This document shows positions 15,395 to 52,528 of a stretch of DNA of 64,000 nucleotides, piece after piece. The stretch lies in the NCBI RefSeq assembly GCF_001939115.1, contig NZ_MQTZ01000042.1:62001-126000 (forward strand), in the 5' to 3' direction. The notes beneath the pieces are model-generated. The model had not been told where the DNA came from. It worked only from the letters and a program-made list of their open reading frames with translations, and ran no database searches. This DNA comes from Leptolyngbya sp. 'hensonii' (GTDB lineage Bacteria; Cyanobacteriota; Cyanobacteriia; GCF-001939115). Both the position numbers and the translations under genes were made by a program. Each line of letters begins with the position of its first letter. Position 1 is the first letter of the stretch.

Positions 15395-18031
15395 ATGTAT
15401 TCAGGCAAAACCATCCCTTTACCCGCCCGGTTGCTTGGCTCTACCACCCTGGCGGCGATCGTCTGCACTGATGTCTTGGCCTCCACTGCCCGCATCCACA
15501 CAGACCAGGAGCAGACCTTAACGCTGATCCGCCGCGATCACCAGACCATGCAGGAAATCTGTCAACGCTACGATGGGCAGATTGTCAAATCTCTGGGAGA
15601 TGGGCTCATCCTGCGGTTTGCCAGCGTTAAGTCTGCGCTTCTATGTGCCCTGGAATTTCAGGCCACCCTGGCCACCCGATCGGAGCAACCAGGACTGCAA
15701 CATCGAATTGGGATTCATCTGGGAGAAGTGGCCTTCGGACATGAGGACGATCTGCTGGGGGATGCCGTCAATATTGCCGATTGTCTGCAGCATCTGGCCC
15801 AACCGGGGGGGGTTTGCCTGTCCCGATCAGTCTACGATGCGATCGTGGCCAGCCTCCCCATCCAGCTCCAGGACGGCGGCTTAGTTCACCTGAATGGTCT
15901 GGCATCAGAAATGCGGGTCTACCATGTGCTCCCGGCCTATTCCTTAACCAGTGCAGGACAGAGGAACTCATCGGATCAACTGGCCGCCATCAGTTTCACA
16001 GCAGTGGTTGATTACAATACCCGCATGCATCAGGATCAGACCTTGACTCTGGGACAACTGCAGCGCGATTTTCAACTTATGCGGGAGGTTGGCCTGCGCT
16101 ACGAAGGGAAAGAGATCAAATCCCTGGGCTATGGTCTGGTGATGGCTTTTGCCAGTGCCGAACGGGCTGTCACCTGGGCGATCGAAGTGCAACGGGCCCT
16201 GGCAGTCCAGACAGCACGGTTGGACCAGGAAGACAATCTGGAACATCGGATCGGCATCCATCTGGGGGATGTGGAGTTTCGGGATGGGGATGTCATGGGG
16301 GATGTGGTCAATATTGCAGCCCGACTCCAACCGCTAGCAGCGCCTGGTGGAGTCTGTCTTTCCCAGGCCGTTTATGATGCTGTCATGAGCGGGTTACAGG
16401 TTAGCGTGGAGGATGGGGGTCTGCAGAACTTAAAGGGAATTCCCCACCCGGTGCGGGTCTATGACATTCCACCCCCACCACCCGTCACCATTACGCGGCG
16501 AAAGGTGTTCATTTCTTATCGGGCCAAGGAGCCTGATTTGGGTCTGGCCAGGGAGTTTCACCATGCCCTCACGGCTGCAGGTCACGAAGTTTTCATGGCG
16601 GGAGAGAGCATTCGACCTGGTGAAGACTGGGTGCAGCGAATTGATGCAGAATTGCAGCAATGTGACTACCTGCTGTTACTGCTCTCCGAAAAGGCCGTTG
16701 CCAGTGAGATGGTCACGGAGGAAGTCCGTCGGGCCAAAGGGTTACGGGATTTGAGCCCCGATCGTAAGCCCGTGATTCTGCCCATTCGGGTCAGTTTTCC
16801 CAGAACGGCCCCCCTCAATTATGACCTGCGGGGATTCCTCAATCGCATCCAACAGCGGGAGTGGGAATCGTCCGAAGATACTCCGGCACTCCTGGAAGAA
16901 TATCTGGACCTGATTGAGCGAGGAGCCCTGTTGGAGAGTGTGGAAGGTTCGGAACTGACCCTGACCCCGGTAGTCGAGCGTTCCGATCTACCACCCCTGC
17001 CTGTTGCTGAACCAGAATTGCCGGGGGGGCAAATGGATGTGGCCTCTGCTTTCTATGTGGTGCGGGAGCCGATCGAGTCCTTCTGCTATCGGGAAATCAC
17101 AAAAAATGGGGCCTTGATTCGGATTAAGGCTCCCCGACAGATGGGTAAGACATCCCTGATGGCCCACATTCTCTACCAGGCCAAGCAACAGACCTATCGC
17201 ACTATCCCTCTAACGTTCCAGCTCACAGATGAGGCAGTCTTTACGGACCTGAACCAGTTCCTGCGCCGCTTCTGTGCTCTGGTCAGCCGCAAGCTGGGCA
17301 TTCCCCTGAAGCAACTGGACGAATACTGGGATGACCAGTATTTCGGTCCCAAGGATAACTGCACTGAATTCTTCGAACAGTGCATCCTGGCTAACCTGGA
17401 AACTCCGCTGGTGCTGGCTCTGGATGAGGTCGATCAGGTCTTTGTCAATCACCGGGTCGCTAAAGAATTCTTGACACTGCTGCGGGCCTGGAATGAACAG
17501 GCCAAGGTGAGTGATATCTGGGCCCAGTTGCGGCTGGTTCTGGTCCATTCTACGGAAGTCTACATTGTCATGGACACGAACTCTTCTCCCTTTAATGTGG
17601 GACTGCCGATCGAGCTGCCGGAATTCACGCCAGAGCAGGTCGCCGATCTGGCCGATCGTCACGGTCTGATCTGGACCCCAACCCAGATCCAGCAACTGAT
17701 GGCCATGATTGGGGGGCATCCCTATCTGGTTCGAGTCGCCATGTACTATGTCGCTCGGGGGGATGTCAACTTTGCGGAGCTGTTGCAGATGGCCGCAACC
17801 GAAGCAGGGCTCTATGGGGATCACCTGCGCCGCCACCTGTGGAACCTGGAGCAGCACAAGGATCTAGCAACTGCAATGGCTCAGGTGGTTGCGTCCGAAA
17901 TACCTGTGCGTCTGGATGCAGAGCAGGCATTCAAACTCCATGGCATGGGCCTGGTCCAGTTGCATCAGAACAAAGTGACACCCCGTTACGACATGTATCG
18001 CCTGTACTTCCGAGACCGGTTGGGAGGGTAA
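15395..18031 (+). CDS. Tandem class III cyclase domains + TIR + AAA-like ATPase
   Basis: An 878-residue four-module protein with no membrane segment. Residues 18-180 and 198-357 are class III nucleotidyl-cyclase homology domains. Domain 1 keeps both metal-binding aspartates (Asp26; Asp69 in KSLGDG) but has Cys130 in place of the transition-state arginine (VNIADC). Domain 2 keeps Asn306 and Arg310 (VNIAAR), Lys242 and Asp299 but has Tyr246 in place of the second aspartate (KSLGYG). One composite active site could form, as in mammalian C1/C2. Residues 368-510 are a TIR domain ([12 protein letters not shown]) with Glu443 at the NADase glutamate position (SEMVTEE). Residues 550-870 are an AAA-like ATPase ([19 protein letters not shown]). 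It is followed after 2 bp by a second AAA gene. Confidence 0.88.
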
Positions 18032-18033
18032 AG

Positions 18034-20904
18034 ATGCTTGAAACGATCGATCTCTCAAACCATAGCTACCAGGTTGGGGGCAGTCTTGCCGCTGATAACC
18101 CGACCTATGTGTTCCGCAGCGCGGATCAGGATCTGTATGAGCGCCTCCAAGCTGGCGAGTTCTGTTATGTTTTCAACGCTCGCCAGATGGGAAAATCCAG
18201 TCTACGGGTCCAAACTATGCGACGCCTGCAGGCAGAGGGAATCGCCTGTGCCGCGATCGACATCACGACGATCGGCAGTCAACAGGTCACGCCCATGCAG
18301 TGGTACGCAGGCATCATTGGGCAACTGATCAGTGGGTTTGGGCTGGGTAGCCGAGTCAACCGTCGCACCTGGCTGCGGGAGCGAGATACGCTTACCCCTG
18401 TAGAGTTGCTGGGGGAGTTTATTGAGACCGTGTTGCTGGTGGAGATTACCCAACCACTGGTCATCTTTATAGATGAAATTGACAGCATGCTGAGCCTGGT
18501 CAACTTTCCCAGAGATGACTTTTTTGCCCTGATCCGGGCCTGCTACAACCATCGGGCCGATCGGCCTGCTTATCAACGACTCAACTTTGTCTTGATTGGG
18601 GTCGCTAATCCCTCCGAGCTGATGCAGGATAAGGGCCGCACCCCCTTCAACATTGGTCAGGCAATTGAACTAACAGGATTCCAACTCCCAGCAGCGGCTC
18701 CCCTGGTGAGTGGTCTGGCCGATCAGGTGCGCGATCCCCTGGCGGTACTTCAGGCCATCCTGGATTGGACGGGTGGACAACCCTTTCTAACCCAGAAATT
18801 GTGTCGGCTGGTGGTCGAGGCAGCGGATCATGGGGCAGACTCCAGCCCTGACCGCTCTCCGACTGACCTGGTAGACCACATTGTTCAGGCCCGTATCCTG
18901 AGTGATTGGGAATCTCAGGACATCCCAGAGCATCTGAAAACCATCCGCGATCGGATCCGACGGAATGAGCTGCGGGTGCGGCGGATGCTGGGGCTGTACC
19001 GTCAGGTGTTGGTGACGGGGGCGATCGCGGCGGATGATAGCCTGGATCAGATGGACTTGCGTCTGTCTGGGCTGGTGGTGAAGCAGCAGGAGCACTTACA
19101 GGCTCGCAATCCCATTTACCAGCAAGTCTTTAACCTGGATTGGGTCGATCGGGAGCTGGATCACCTTCGCAGTTATGCCGATGCGCTGAAAGCCTGGTTG
19201 AAGTCCGATCGACAGGATCAGTCCTGTTTGTTGCGGGGACAGGTCTTGCAGGAGGCCCAGAGGGAGGTGCTGGGCAAAAGTCTGAGTGACGAGGATTACC
19301 AGTTTCTGGCCGCCAGTCAGGATCTGGCCCGCAGCCATTTGGAAAGTGCCCTGGATCTGGAGCGGCAGGCCAAAGAAGCCGAACGGCTGGCCAAGGAATC
19401 GGCCAAACGATCGCTGGACGAGGCCACCCAGATCCTGAATCGGGCTGAAAAACGGGCTCGTTCTCGCATCCGTCTCGGCTTCCTTGCCTTCAGTCTGTTA
19501 ACGTTGACGGGGGTGGCTGCAGCCTCCATCATTGCTGGACTGGCCATTCAAGAAGCCAATCGGAATGTGAATGAAGTTCAGGGGATCATCGATCGGGTGA
19601 TTGGGGACATGACCCAGGAGCAGGCCAAACATAACCAGATTGGGGCTCTGCTGATTGCCCTGGAAGCCGCTCAGAATCTGCAGGATATTGCGGTGAAGAA
19701 CAGTACATTGCAGCAGAAATATCCCCATGCCCGCCTGATGATGGCCTTGGGCCTGCTGGAAGCCCGTCCCCATGAGGAGCTGCGACTGGCCCTGAGTCAG
19801 ATTCTGGGCAATATGCGGGAGTATAATCAACTGAAGCAATCTGCCACGATTGCAGTTGTTGCCTTTAGCCCGGATAGTCGTTCTCTGGCCATTGCGTTGA
19901 GGAACGGCAGGGTAGTTCTCTGGGACCAGAAGACCCAGAACAAACAAGTATTTGAAGCCCATCGGGAGCGGATTACCAGTTTAAGTTTCACGCCGGACGG
20001 CACGAAACTGGTGACGACTTCTGCAGACAAGACGGCCAGCCTCTGGAATCTACCAAACCTGACCCGCAATCCCCAGCCACTGATACGTCTGCACCATCCT
20101 GATCAGGTCACAGGGAGTAGTATCAGTCCGGATGGAAAGCTGCTGGCCACGTCATCCAGCGATCGTAAGGTTCGGATCTGGAGCATGGCTGGAACCCCAC
20201 TGCAGGTGTTAACCTATCCCTCACCCATCCGGTGGGTCAGTTTTAGTGGGGATGGCCGCTATCTGGCGATGGTTGTCGATGGATCTCCCCAGATCTGGGA
20301 TTGGAATATAGGTAAGCCCCTACAAATCTTGAAAACGGAAGGGAGTGTGAATCGGGTCAGCTTCAGTCCTACCCGTCCAGTTCTGGTCTCAACCGCTTTT
20401 GATGGGTCCATCAACCTTTGGACACAAGATCCAGGCAGCGCCAACTGGCGATCCGTTCAGAAGCCGATTAAACAGCACCAGGACAGCATTCTTGGTCTCA
20501 GTTTTGGCAACCATGGGCAACAGTTTGCGACGGTATCTACCGATCTCACGATTCGGATTTGGTCTTTGCAAGGGAAACAGGTGCTGAAACTGCACCAGCA
20601 ATCTTCAGCACGGGGGGTTAGTCTCAGCCCGGATGGTAACTACATCGCCACCACATCTTCCGATCGCATCGTTCGCCTCTGGAAGACCCAACAGCCAGAG
20701 GCCCCAGGCCAACCCCAGAAGCTGGCCGAACTAGATGTGCTGGTCGGTAAGGGTTGTACCTGGTTGCAGGATTATTTTGTCAACCATCCAGAGGATCTGC
20801 AGAAACTGCCAGTCTGTCAGGCCGCGCTCAAAGCCAGTCTTCCTGATAACACCTGGAAAACCTTGACCAATTCCACATCTGGGGAATTCAGAACAGCTTT
20901 TTGA
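18034..20904 (+). CDS. AAA-like ATPase with transmembrane segment and WD40 propeller
   Basis: A 956-residue protein. I start at the ATG at 18034 ([16 protein letters not shown]), two bases after the preceding stop with GGGAGGG upstream; a longer frame to 17839 would overlap the upstream gene. Residues 20-370 are an AAA-like ATPase of the same type as the upstream gene's ([11 protein letters not shown] at 48-57; FIDEIDSML Walker B). A charged coiled coil follows (431-475), then one membrane segment (481-503, [20 protein letters not shown]) and about seven WD40 repeats from about 605 to 895 (for example VRIWSM, INLWTQ, IRIWSL, VRLWKT). The C-terminal tail [11 protein letters not shown] resembles the end of other cyanobacterial WD40 ATPases. 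Its end overlaps a convergent glycosyltransferase gene. Confidence 0.85.
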
Positions 20905-39159: not shown

Positions 39160-39831
39160 ATGGTAGTGACGCAAGATAAACCGTTAGCATCTGTGTTTCG
39201 CCAAATGGGCGGTGGAGCGTTTCCACCAGTCGTAGAAACCTTTGAGCGAGGCAAGACAATTTTCTTTCCAGGAGACCCGGCTGAACGGGTCTACTTCTTA
39301 CTAAAGGGTGCTGTTAAGCTTTCCAGAGTCTATGAAGCAGGGGAGGAAATCACCGTTGCTCTTCTGCGTGAGAATAGTGTTTTTGGTGTTCTATCCCTGA
39401 TCACAGGACATCGGTCCGATCGGTTCTATCATGCTGTTGCGTTCACACCGGTCGAGTTACTCTCTGTTCCCATTGAACAGGTCGAAAAGGCTTTGAAGGA
39501 AAACCCTGATTTATCTATGGTGATGCTGCAGGGTCTGTCCTCCAGAATCTTGCAGACGGAAATGATGATCGAAACCCTGGCCCATCGAGATATGGGATCT
39601 CGATTGGTCAGCTTTTTGTTGATCCTTTGTCGGGATTTTGGCGTTCCCACTGCAGATGGAATTACCATCGACCTCAAACTTTCCCATCAGGCGATCGCAG
39701 AAGCGATTGGCTCCACTCGGGTCACGGTCACCCGGTTATTGGGAGATTTGCGCACTGAGAAAATGATTTCGATTCACAAAAAGAAAATTACAGTACACAA
39801 TCCAGTCACCCTCAGTCAGCAATTTACCTAG
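39160..39831 (+). CDS. ntcA: Global nitrogen regulator NtcA
   Basis: A 223-residue CRP/FNR-family activator. The cyclic-nucleotide-like sensor fold (residues 25-140) ends in the dimer helix, followed by the DNA-binding helix-turn-helix [20 protein letters not shown], which is the strongly conserved NtcA recognition region. It senses 2-oxoglutarate, helped by PipX, and controls genes for nitrogen assimilation in cyanobacteria. Divergent from fabI with an NtcA box in the shared spacer. Confidence 0.97.
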
Positions 39832-48582: not shown

Positions 48583-49425
48583 TTACTCTTCCATCCCTTT
48601 AGGCTTGATCGAACTGACTGTACAACAATCCACCAGAGGTTCTTGAGCCAGTTTCTTCAGGTCAATTCCCTCCAACAAATCCGACCAGAGCGCAGCCAGA
48701 TTCGGATCGTTCGGTTTACTGCGACGCAAGGCGGCCAGCGTAGTCAGCGCTTCGTGCCAGATTCCAGCCGCTGCATAAATTGCCGGAACTTCAGCCACAG
48801 AAGTCTTCTTCAGCTTGCTCTGGAGATCCGGGGCAAAATTCACGCGCTCAATAAACCCATCGGCAGCATCCTCAGCCGTGCGATCGTTCAGATCACAAAT
48901 AACATTGATAGACCAGCGATAAACCTTACCAACTTGTAGAGGGGCCACTCCCGGTTTCTCCGGGAGTTTAAAGCTCATCACACCAGACTGATCTCCAATT
49001 GGGAGCAATGTCTTATAAACCACTTTGACATTTCGAGGTCCCCGCCATTCGTAAAGGATGAACTCTACGGTTTTAGCGTAATCGGGTTTGAAGGGAGGTT
49101 GATGCCAGAAAAAGGTTGGGTACCCAGAAACAGTTTGACCAATGCTGCGATCGGGGGCGGGAGTGAGGGCAGCCAGCGTCCGATAGTTCTTCGGAAAGGC
49201 ATAGGTCTGATTGGCTGGCAAAGGGGGGAGATTGGGTACCAGCTTAGCATCCAGGCATTGGCCTCGAACCCCTGCCGGTTCTCTTCGTCCCGGTAAGCCG
49301 CCTCTAGCAGGTGCCTTAAAGATGGATTTTGCCAGGGTTAAGGTGGGCAAGCTGCAAACAAACAGACCAAGGGAAATCGACAGGAAACTGCGGACCAGAA
49401 GCTTGTAAGGTATTTTACTAGCCAT
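48583..49425 (-). CDS. DUF928 family exported protein (first)
   Basis: A 280-residue protein. I start at the ATG at 49425 (MASKIPYKLLVRSFLSISLG), which gives a signal peptide and has GGAG upstream, although a GTG at 49497 overlaps the previous stop. The mature part begins with RGGLPGRREPAGVRG and continues with LTPAPDRSIGQTVSGYPTFF, the DUF928 signature. The rest is beta-rich, then helical (AIYAAAGIWHEALTTLAALR). DUF928 is cyanobacterial; genes often lie near TPS transporters or CHASE2 cyclases. Function unknown. Confidence 0.8.
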   Translation of the reverse strand: MASKIPYKLLVRSFLSISLGLFVCSLPTLTLAKSIFKAPARGGLPGRREPAGVRGQCLDAKLVPNLPPLPANQTYAFPKNYRTLAALTPAPDRSIGQTVSGYPTFFWHQPPFKPDYAKTVEFILYEWRGPRNVKVVYKTLLPIGDQSGVMSFKLPEKPGVAPLQVGKVYRWSINVICDLNDRTAEDAADGFIERVNFAPDLQSKLKKTSVAEVPAIYAAAGIWHEALTTLAALRRSKPNDPNLAALWSDLLEGIDLKKLAQEPLVDCCTVSSIKPKGMEE

Positions 49426-49493: not shown

Positions 49494-50375
49494 TCACCTG
49501 GATGAAACTTGATTCTTACCGGGCAAACAGCAATTTACCAGAGGCTCCTGAGCATAATCAGCCAACTCAACTGACTTCAATAAATCAGCCCAATCCTTGG
49601 CATAAACCTGGTTCTGGGGATTAGTACGCCGCAAGTCAGCCAGGGTAGAAATCGTCTCATTCCAGATTCCCTGTGCCGCCAACAGGGCCAACCGTTCCTC
49701 TGGCTTGGCATTCTGAATCTGACTCAGCAGGTCGGGTTTGGCAACCCGGCGAATCCAGCCTCCCACATAGATGTCATTATCCTCAGGATCTGCGGGCTTA
49801 TCTCCAGGCTTACGAGCAAGCTCGGGGCAGTTCACTTCAAAGTACCAGAGGTAGGTTTTATTGACCTCCAAGGCTTTCACCCCAGCGTTGCCAGGTATAG
49901 TTAAACTGAGTACACCAGGAATACTTCTGGGCCTGCCCGATTTCACTGGTTTTCCATTCCTGCCGTACTCAATTGGATCGCCCTTCTCATCATAGAAAAC
50001 AACCCGACTTTTACTATCTCGGATAAACTGAGTCTCAATGGTTGTTTTGTAAAGAACCGTCGTATTTCTCTCGTCCCGCAGCTCAAAATCAATGGACGGG
50101 GCAGAGTGTTCGGGAACGTACCACAGAAACGTCGGATACTCTGCCAAGGTAACGCTCCGGTTTGATGGCGGCACCAAAGCCACCAAAGCATTCTTCTGGT
50201 TAGGAGCAATGCAGCTTTGGGGATCACGTGAGCCTGCAGGTTCTCGCCGCCCTGGGATACCACGCTGACGCACCTTGATCCCAGCCAAAACCAGTTCTGG
50301 GAAACTGGCCATCAGCAAGCTAGTTAAGATGGCGAACGAAGCAGTCCAAAAAGTAAAACGTGATTTCTTATACAT
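49494..50375 (-). CDS. DUF928 family exported protein (second)
   Basis: A 293-residue paralogue of the gene just downstream, from the ATG at 50375 with a signal peptide (MYKKSRFTFWTASFAILTSL, cleavage after about residue 31). DUF928 motifs are RQRGIPGRREPAGSRDPQSC, LVPPSNRSVTLAEYPTFLWY and the C-terminal RLALLAAQGIWNETISTLAD. Two members in tandem imply either a heteromer or specialised roles. It lies 119 bp after the CHASE2 cyclase gene. Confidence 0.8.
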   Translation of the reverse strand: MYKKSRFTFWTASFAILTSLLMASFPELVLAGIKVRQRGIPGRREPAGSRDPQSCIAPNQKNALVALVPPSNRSVTLAEYPTFLWYVPEHSAPSIDFELRDERNTTVLYKTTIETQFIRDSKSRVVFYDEKGDPIEYGRNGKPVKSGRPRSIPGVLSLTIPGNAGVKALEVNKTYLWYFEVNCPELARKPGDKPADPEDNDIYVGGWIRRVAKPDLLSQIQNAKPEERLALLAAQGIWNETISTLADLRRTNPQNQVYAKDWADLLKSVELADYAQEPLVNCCLPGKNQVSSR

Positions 50376-50494
50376 ATGGGACCAATCCTTATGCATGTAA
50401 ATAACACCAGCGAGAGATGACTCTAGCAGCCTGCACTCAAAACAGATAGATGGTTCAAATGGACCCAATGCTTAGGATGTGAGAGCATCCCACT

Positions 50495-52528
50495 TTATTT
50501 TGCATTGAGATTACTGCTATTTATGTCTGATTCCGATGGGGAATGTTCCTGATTACCCCCACTCTGATCAGCGAATGAGTTGGCTTCTGGAGCAGGATTC
50601 GTCTCAGACAGACGGGCCAGCACCTGGTAGACATCCACCATATGTTGCTTTCCTTTCAGGGCCAAATACCCCCAGTTCTCTACCTGGAACTTATCCCGGG
50701 TATACTCATATGTTTCATGGGCGATGAGAATTCGACAAAGTCCTCCCTGCCGATCTTTCTCCACACTTTCTAGGCGAGAAGCCGTATTGACACTATCACC
50801 GATAATGCCATATTCCAGCCGTTCTTTACCCCCCAAACTACCAGCCACGATCGGGCCAGTGAAGATGCCCACCCGAATCTGGATACAGGGCAACCCCCTC
50901 TGTTTCCAGTCTTGATTCAGCAGTTGCAAATTCTCTCCCATCGATAGGGCGCAGGCCACGGCATTACAGGCATCCGCTGCAATGGCTTCCCGAGTCTCCC
51001 GGGCCACAGGCACCCCAAAAACGGCAATCAGACCGTCCCCTGTAAACTTATTGACAATCCCATGGTAGAGTTGCACTTCCCGCGTCATCACACTCAGGTA
51101 CTCATTGAGCCAGTTCAGCAGGTCTTCCGGTAGCATTTGCTCGGAGATGGTGCTGAAGTTCTTAATATCTGTAAACAACATGGTTGCCGTCAGCTTTTGA
51201 CCAGGCAGTTTACCGTCCTGCATCAGACGATCGCGAGAGTTCCAGAGGGCCGCCGCAATTTCCGGGGAGGCATTCTGCCCCAACAGAGTCATGGTCATCT
51301 GTTGTTGCCGCTGAGCCTGTTGGGCCCGATAGGCCACCACAGCCATCCCCGTCAGCAGCAGGTTCAAGGCTGGCGTAATGACTGGAATCCACCCCTGGTG
51401 TAAAAAAATAATAAAGCCACTGCCAAGGACTGTTCCCAAAGCAGCCGTTCCCCCCAGGCCCAACACCACCGGATGCCGCAAGCGCCAGGCCAGCACCCCA
51501 CCCAGCACAGACCAACCAGATATCCAGAGAATCTCTCCCCATTCGGACCAGAACCAGAAGAGAGGACGCGCTCCAGTCACTGCATCCAGAAACTGGCTGA
51601 CCATCTGGGCATGAACTTCCACACCCGGCATCTTGGGATCGATCCGTTCTGCGGCACTGAATGGCGTATTAAAAAAATCTTTTGCACTGGGAGCAATACT
51701 ACCAATCAGAATAATTTTATCTTTGATCAATTCAGGTGCAACCCGTCCATCTAGGACATCGGAAAGGCTGACACGGGTAGCAATACGCTTGTGCGTTCGG
51801 TAATTGAGAAGTATTTGGTAACTATTAGGATCATTATCCTGATACCCACCAGAGTTTTTCTCCAGGGGAACTAACAGTGCTTGCCCCCACTCAATGTTCT
51901 GGTCGCTGTCCTCACTCAGTTGAGGTTCCAACTTTAAGGGTTGCAGATACATCTGAGCTACCTGAAACGCAAAGGAAGGCAAAATCGCGTCTCCACTGGG
52001 CGTAACTAGATACAAATTGCGTCGGACGACATTATCTGGGTCAGTCACCACATCGTTAAAGCCAACCTGATCTGGCGAAATACTGGCGGGCGGAGGAATA
52101 ATGCGATCCTCTTTAGCAACTGGGAAGGTTGTAATGGCAATGATATTAGAGGCCTTGAACTCCTTGGCTAGTTCAGCATGGCCAGGCTCCTGGGGTAAAT
52201 CCCGATAGATATCCAGGCCAATCACCCGAGGTTGATGACGTTGCAGTTCCCGGAGAACCTTGGCCAGATCTCGATCGGAAAAGGGAACGCCATACTTTTT
52301 ATTGTCATCCTCCGTGATTCCAACCACGAGGAAACGAGGGTCCGGCCCAGGATCAGGGCGAAGCTGAACCATCTGATCATAGGCTTTCAGTTCCAGGGAT
52401 TGCAGCCAACCCAGCGATCGCAACCCTAATATTAATCCCGTAGCTGTAGCACTACTGATGACGACACTCAACAACCCTGTTAGGTCTGGTTTTGCATCCC
52501 GAATGCGCTGAAAAAATTTGATTACCAC
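50495..52528 (-). CDS. CHASE2-domain adenylate cyclase
   Basis: A 677-residue class III cyclase from a GTG start. An N-terminal membrane helix is followed by an extracytoplasmic CHASE2 sensor (about 45-330), two or three membrane helices (about 335-420), and the catalytic domain: LFTDIKNFSTISEQM (first Asp), NKFTGDGLIAVFGVP (Lys and second Asp) and GDSVNTASRLESVEK (Asn and Arg). All catalytic residues are present, so it should make cAMP as a homodimer. Clustered with two DUF928 genes, opposite the TpsB gene. Confidence 0.92.
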   Translation of the reverse strand: MVIKFFQRIRDAKPDLTGLLSVVISSATATGLILGLRSLGWLQSLELKAYDQMVQLRPDPGPDPRFLVVGITEDDNKKYGVPFSDRDLAKVLRELQRHQPRVIGLDIYRDLPQEPGHAELAKEFKASNIIAITTFPVAKEDRIIPPPASISPDQVGFNDVVTDPDNVVRRNLYLVTPSGDAILPSFAFQVAQMYLQPLKLEPQLSEDSDQNIEWGQALLVPLEKNSGGYQDNDPNSYQILLNYRTHKRIATRVSLSDVLDGRVAPELIKDKIILIGSIAPSAKDFFNTPFSAAERIDPKMPGVEVHAQMVSQFLDAVTGARPLFWFWSEWGEILWISGWSVLGGVLAWRLRHPVVLGLGGTAALGTVLGSGFIIFLHQGWIPVITPALNLLLTGMAVVAYRAQQAQRQQQMTMTLLGQNASPEIAAALWNSRDRLMQDGKLPGQKLTATMLFTDIKNFSTISEQMLPEDLLNWLNEYLSVMTREVQLYHGIVNKFTGDGLIAVFGVPVARETREAIAADACNAVACALSMGENLQLLNQDWKQRGLPCIQIRVGIFTGPIVAGSLGGKERLEYGIIGDSVNTASRLESVEKDRQGGLCRILIAHETYEYTRDKFQVENWGYLALKGKQHMVDVYQVLARLSETNPAPEANSFADQSGGNQEHSPSESDINSSNLNAK

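Follow-up and report, generated by a model that had tools for sequence, protein, structure and literature searches.

Complementary active-site losses in a tandem cyclase joined to TIR and AAA_35 domains in a cyanobacterial two-gene system

Human sAC (ADCY10) and the transmembrane ACs with their C1/C2 pair carry two cyclase domains per chain and one intact site, to which the first domain contributes the metal-binding residues and the second those for base recognition and the transition state. The cyanobacterial protein described here appears to share both features. Tandem cyclases were already known from bacteria, in the form of the clade A Pycsar cyclases with their pair of successive domains (PMC11224242). 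In addition, NTP-dependent conflict systems such as VMAP and iSTAND have been described from multicellular prokaryotes, cyanobacteria among them (Kaur et al. 2020, PMC7159879); the modules they have in common with the present system are cNMP cyclase, trypsin-like, caspase-like and TIR domains placed beside NTPases and repeat proteins. A further parallel lies in the plant TIR-NLRs (RPP1, Roq1), in which, as here, a TIR domain is followed by a P-loop NTPase, in their case of STAND type. A literature search covering TIR systems with AAA_35, tandem cyclases of bacteria and fusions of cyclase to TIR returned no direct description and no experimental work on the two-gene AAA_35 system, which was also not found named in Kaur et al. 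2020 (PMC7159879).

We analysed a 64,000-nucleotide stretch of DNA from Leptolyngbya sp. 'hensonii' (contig NZ_MQTZ01000042.1, positions 62,001 to 126,000; hereafter the window), in which one open reading frame encodes two cyclase domains followed by a TIR and an AAA_35 domain (Table 1). Using Pfam, we found two stretches of Guanylate_cyc (PF00211) in this window protein, together scoring 70.4 bits (cut-off 21.9) and each passing the cut-off singly, as well as TIR_2 (72.0 bits, cut-off 28) and AAA_35 (469.9 bits, cut-off 27).

Table 1 Features of the window protein and its partner gene, in window positions
Feature	Position	Strand	Basis or remark
Cyclase-cyclase-TIR-AAA_35 protein (window protein), 878 aa	15395..18031	+	open ORF + Pfam
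Cyclase domain 1, aa 19-178	15449..15928	+	Pfam + alignment
D26, first metal aspartate of domain 1, kept	15470-15472	+	
D69, second metal aspartate of domain 1, kept	15599-15601	+	
C130, in place of the catalytic Arg of domain 1	15782-15784	+	
Linker between cyclase domains, 15 aa, aa 179-193	15929..15973	+	low pLDDT
Cyclase domain 2, aa 194-358	15974..16468	+	Pfam + alignment
A203, domain 2, first metal aspartate lost	16001-16003	+	
Y246, domain 2, second metal aspartate lost	16130-16132	+	
TIR_2 domain, aa 371-490	16505..16864	+	Pfam
E443, putative NADase glutamate of the TIR	16721-16723	+	
AAA_35 P-loop NTPase domain, aa 543-873	17021..18013	+	Pfam; Walker motifs
Partner gene, AAA_35-TM-WD40, 956 aa	18034..20904	+	2-nt gap after the stop codon of the window protein
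Partner AAA_35 domain, aa 16-366	18079..19131	+	Pfam
Partner hydrophobic segment, ~aa 483-505, likely transmembrane	19480..19548	+	
Partner WD40 repeats (predicted propeller), ~aa 595-890	19816..20703	+	Pfam

The two cyclase domains have lost different parts of the catalytic set. Domain 1 retains D26, D69, K65, D119 and N126, its sole loss on the base and ribose side being that of the arginine replaced by C130; domain 2 retains K242, D299, N306 and R310, and both of its metal aspartates are gone. Each residue named in an earlier note on this DNA was present at its place in the translated ORF. That note had recognized Y246 as the replacement of the second aspartate of domain 2, which stands, and had overlooked the loss of the first at A203, where domain 2 reads FTAVV and its relatives FTDV. 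Two metal aspartates (D26 and D69, from domain 1) and an Asn/Arg pair (N306 and R310, from domain 2) are therefore on offer to one site. Sequencing error was rejected as the source of the substitutions, which involve three different codons and are borne out by a paralogue.

A Lys/Asp pair sets the adenylyl (ATP) specificity of cyclases. The corresponding pair in the window protein, K242 and D299, aligns with that of Ma1120 and is of the ATP type, making cAMP from ATP the most likely product.

For comparison, we assembled 28 non-redundant single-domain cyanobacterial relatives, from which the degenerate remnant L036 was left out. The full D-K-D-D-N-R set is present in 27 of the 28. The exception, a single-cyclase–TIR–AAA_35 protein of Argonema antarcticum (L040, 3307-3894), retains the metal aspartates, Asn and Arg and has A/Q in place of the K/D pair, a candidate change in nucleotide specificity. 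At the 33 columns that are near-invariant in these relatives, domain 2 deviates at three (D26A, C56G and D69Y, in domain-1 numbering), two of which are the metal aspartates. Domain 1 deviates at four (M34I, A78V, V82L and R130C); the first three changes are conservative and the fourth is the catalytic arginine. Taken alone, the loss pattern of the window protein is weakly non-random, with a chance of 0.18 by simple counting.

The same genome encodes a second tandem-cyclase protein (L007, 937-2595), which is fused to pentapeptide repeats and is 42% identical to the window protein. Six of its 12 catalytic positions are lost, namely K, D, N and R in domain 1 and both aspartates in domain 2. All six belong to the dead site, and all six composite-site residues are retained, a split with a chance of ~0.002 by simple counting, bearing in mind that L007 and the window protein share ancestry and are not independent. 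Complementary loss leaving just one workable site of two is thus present in both tandem proteins. The earlier proposal of a single intact composite site as in C1/C2 finds good support in the sequences, with L007, the only other tandem relative, conforming more strictly than the window protein; random loss of residues among tandem homologues (L007 only), which would have spoken against that proposal, was not seen. The L007 gene adjoins a histidine kinase/receiver gene.

With the catalytic columns removed before tree building, the first domains of the two tandems cluster (99/95), as do the second domains (83/75), the very long L007 branches carrying some risk of misplacement. This grouping, first domains with first and second with second, suggests one tandem ancestor whose composite-site residues were retained while its descendants diverged widely. 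A single origin of the tandem, followed by fusion to different C-terminal modules, is probable; the first domains support this origin well and the second domains more weakly. With either tandem as query, no further tandem relative was found in 389 other sampled cyanobacterial genomes, so that the arrangement is known from two paralogues of one genome; the viral contigs searched yielded none. Among plasmids, 475 records matched, and in the matches listed, the spans of ~500-600 bases represent lone cyclase domains that align with either half of the query.

We used AlphaFold to model the protein in two runs. Each cyclase domain folded confidently (pLDDT mostly 80-97), and the placement of the domains relative to each other was loose (pTM 0.61 and 0.53), with one homologue covering domain 1 in the alignment. 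The modelled domains match Ma1120, Rv1900c and S. pomeroyi cyclases (TM 0.85-0.93 on target, rmsd 1.4-2.3 A). Both domains have counterparts in human sAC and AC9, in the same order and at an rmsd of ~18-20 A, the pose in these low-pTM models not being C1/C2-like, and the full-length model found PaPycC (6YII) at rank 49, with no common pose.

The composite site might also form between chains, with domain 1 of one molecule meeting domain 2 of another, and cyclase activity would then report AAA_35 oligomerization. The same residue evidence fits such an arrangement, the 15-aa linker is short, the models show no C1/C2 packing within one chain, and the NLR-like structural match leads one to expect that AAA_35 oligomerizes. 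However, the modelled pose is unreliable, and human sAC, AC9 and other known tandem cyclases pair within the chain; we consider a between-chain site rather unlikely.

The downstream domains of the window protein carry the expected functional residues. The TIR glutamate is conserved in 38 of 40 TIR domains of the family, and E443 aligns with the Glu of a structurally solved bacterial TIR (PDB 7uwg/7uxu), of TIR NADases and of the CRISPR-associated Cat1. With a TIR fold and a catalytic-type Glu both present, the window protein contains a putative NADase. Its AAA_35 domain has a ten-residue Walker A motif and the Walker B motif LALDEVD; across the family both motifs are intact, GK being invariant and DE nearly so. 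No sequence relatives of AAA_35 were found in the PDB apart from P-loop matches. Compared by fold, the full-length model matched RPP1, a TIR-NLR of plants, across 579 columns (E 1.7e-10, TM 0.41 on target), a match that we read as covering the TIR–NTPase half.

Strong matches to the window protein occur in 52 of 96 cyanobacterial genomes, mostly through AAA_35 with or without TIR. The slot N-terminal to the TIR is filled by a single cyclase, a trypsin-like domain (Trypsin_2), a CHAT/caspase domain or a protein kinase (Pfam), and kinase–AAA_35 and cyclase–AAA_35 proteins without TIR also exist among the relatives. A second AAA_35 gene follows on the same strand at 32 of the 48 loci with enough sequence, often overlapping or a few bases away; the protein that it encodes has WD40 repeats at the window locus and TPR arrays at other loci. 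This two-gene AAA_35 system, in which cyclase, protease and kinase modules replace one another, is widespread in cyanobacteria.

Several loci show further rearrangements. The order is permuted in L013 (955-3093), a TIR–AAA_35–cyclase protein whose C-terminal cyclase has the full catalytic set. In L036 (52-2619), which has the same two-gene layout, a degenerate cyclase remnant precedes protein kinase and AAA_35 domains. An in-frame TAA separates the cyclase and AAA_35 parts in L058 (400-2079); the same parts form one gene in L057.

L036 bears on whether the tandem makes a cyclic nucleotide at all. It could be a decaying or purely regulatory pseudo-enzyme, kept for nucleotide binding or dimerization, and there are precedents both in this family, in the L036 remnant, and in related conflict systems, where several of the cyclase domains attached to the vWA component are inactive (Kaur et al. 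2020, PMC7159879). The window protein itself has three catalytic losses, but these fall at dispensable positions, and the six composite-site residues all persist in both tandem proteins despite 42% identity. We therefore judge a pseudo-enzyme improbable.

The window locus lies in a neighbourhood of mostly ordinary genes, with flanking genes on the opposite strand and no defence island. Elsewhere in the window are a CHASE2–cyclase gene (50495-52372, minus strand), an ordinary cyanobacterial sensor cyclase; a Crp-family regulator with a cNMP_binding domain (39160-39831, plus strand), which we take to be NtcA-like from its N-terminus; and two adjacent related ORFs on the minus strand (48583-49425 and 49494-50396) with a common GRREPAG motif. 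In the same genome, a kinase–AAA_35 gene (L004, 1495-4061) is directly preceded by an ORF with weak resemblance to cyclases, which may be a cyclase with a gene of its own. With 24 cyclase domain matches and, above the Pfam cut-off, 16 cNMP-binding matches in the whole genome, a cAMP network probably exists, none of its parts being tied to the window locus. Pfam found no cyclic-nucleotide-binding domain (CNBD) in the window protein or its partner, and no direct route is thus visible from the cyclase product to the TIR.

A Pycsar defence, in which cUMP or cCMP made by the cyclase would activate the TIR NADase, is highly improbable: PADLOC reports weak PycC matches (up to 34 bits), a TIR is present in the same protein and clade A PycC cyclases likewise have two consecutive cyclase domains (PMC11224242), but the K/D pair of the window protein is of the ATP type, its TIR comes without a CNBD whereas PycTIR is CNBD–TIR, the nearest solved cyclases are adenylyl (Ma1120, Rv1900c) with PycC structures matching at E 0.02-0.45 only, and the lack of a CNBD in either protein makes a direct, Pycsar-like activation of the TIR unlikely. 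Membership of Pycsar was rejected on the base residues and on the absence of a CNBD from both proteins (Pfam). Assignment to the VMAP/iSTAND ternary conflict systems was likewise set aside, the locus being a two-gene unit without MoxR ATPase and vWA (Pfam).

On balance, we think it probable, if far from certain, that the tandem is a pseudo-heterodimeric, C1/C2-like cyclase serving as the signal module of a two-gene TIR–AAA_35 alarm or suicide system. A homodimeric class III cyclase domain would have been duplicated in tandem, after which the copies would have shed complementary halves of the two pseudo-symmetric sites. In the composite site, D26 and D69 of domain 1 would hold the metals, and domain 2 would supply K242/D299 for base recognition and N306/R310 for the transition state. 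The tandem would fill the interchangeable N-terminal slot of a system composed of a signal module–TIR–AAA_35 protein and an AAA_35–TM–repeat protein. The repeat protein, WD40 or TPR, may sense the trigger and the paired AAA_35 NTPases may oligomerize; the TIR would cleave NAD+, with the cyclase emitting cAMP as a signal at the same time or beforehand, and an alarm or cell-suicide response would be the outcome. As for the coupling to NAD+ cleavage that the earlier note had proposed, in signalling or in defence by cell death, the architecture and gene context make it plausible.

More tentatively, the C1/C2 division of labour may have arisen a second time, in bacteria, stepwise in one lineage, from complete homodimeric single domains through the window protein, a tandem lacking three of the dispensable residues, to L007, which lacks all six, and the TIR-NLR-like window protein would couple a cAMP burst to NAD+ destruction. 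As part of this same, somewhat doubtful, reading, the dead second site could take on the role of a regulatory pocket. Outside eukaryotes, the proteins offer a natural gradation between symmetric and asymmetric cyclases, along which the order of losses can be traced and put to enzymatic tests, and the presence of cyclic-nucleotide synthesis and a TIR in one chain allows any part of cAMP in a bacterial NLR-like alarm to be tested directly.

The window protein resembles sAC also in having a P-loop region downstream of the cyclases, but, in contrast to sAC and C1/C2, its tandem appears to be a separate duplication of a bacterial domain like those of Ma1120 and Rv1900c, and TIR and AAA_35 domains come after it. 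PaPycC (PDB 6YII) and the other Pycsar cyclases of clade A are likewise bacterial, with tandem domains and, as proposed for the window protein, an immune setting in which TIR effectors take part; they are, however, pyrimidine cyclases acting with a separate CNBD–TIR or TM effector, whereas the window protein lacks a CNBD and has an ATP-type K/D pair and a TIR within its own chain. Cyanobacterial single-cyclase–TIR–AAA_35 proteins (for example, L002, L038, L039, L046 and L055) share its TIR, AAA_35, cyclase family and N-terminal cyclase position, and sometimes its partner gene, but have one complete cyclase domain that is presumably homodimeric. The conflict systems of Kaur et al. 2020 (PMC7159879) are built on MoxR–vWA or other cores, in contrast to the paired AAA_35 core of the window system, which is without MoxR or vWA. 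Unlike the plant TIR-NLRs, the window protein adds an N-terminal cyclase pair and leaves the putative sensor repeats to a second gene with its own NTPase. The AAA_35 family system resembles both the TIR-NLRs and the published conflict systems of multicellular bacteria.
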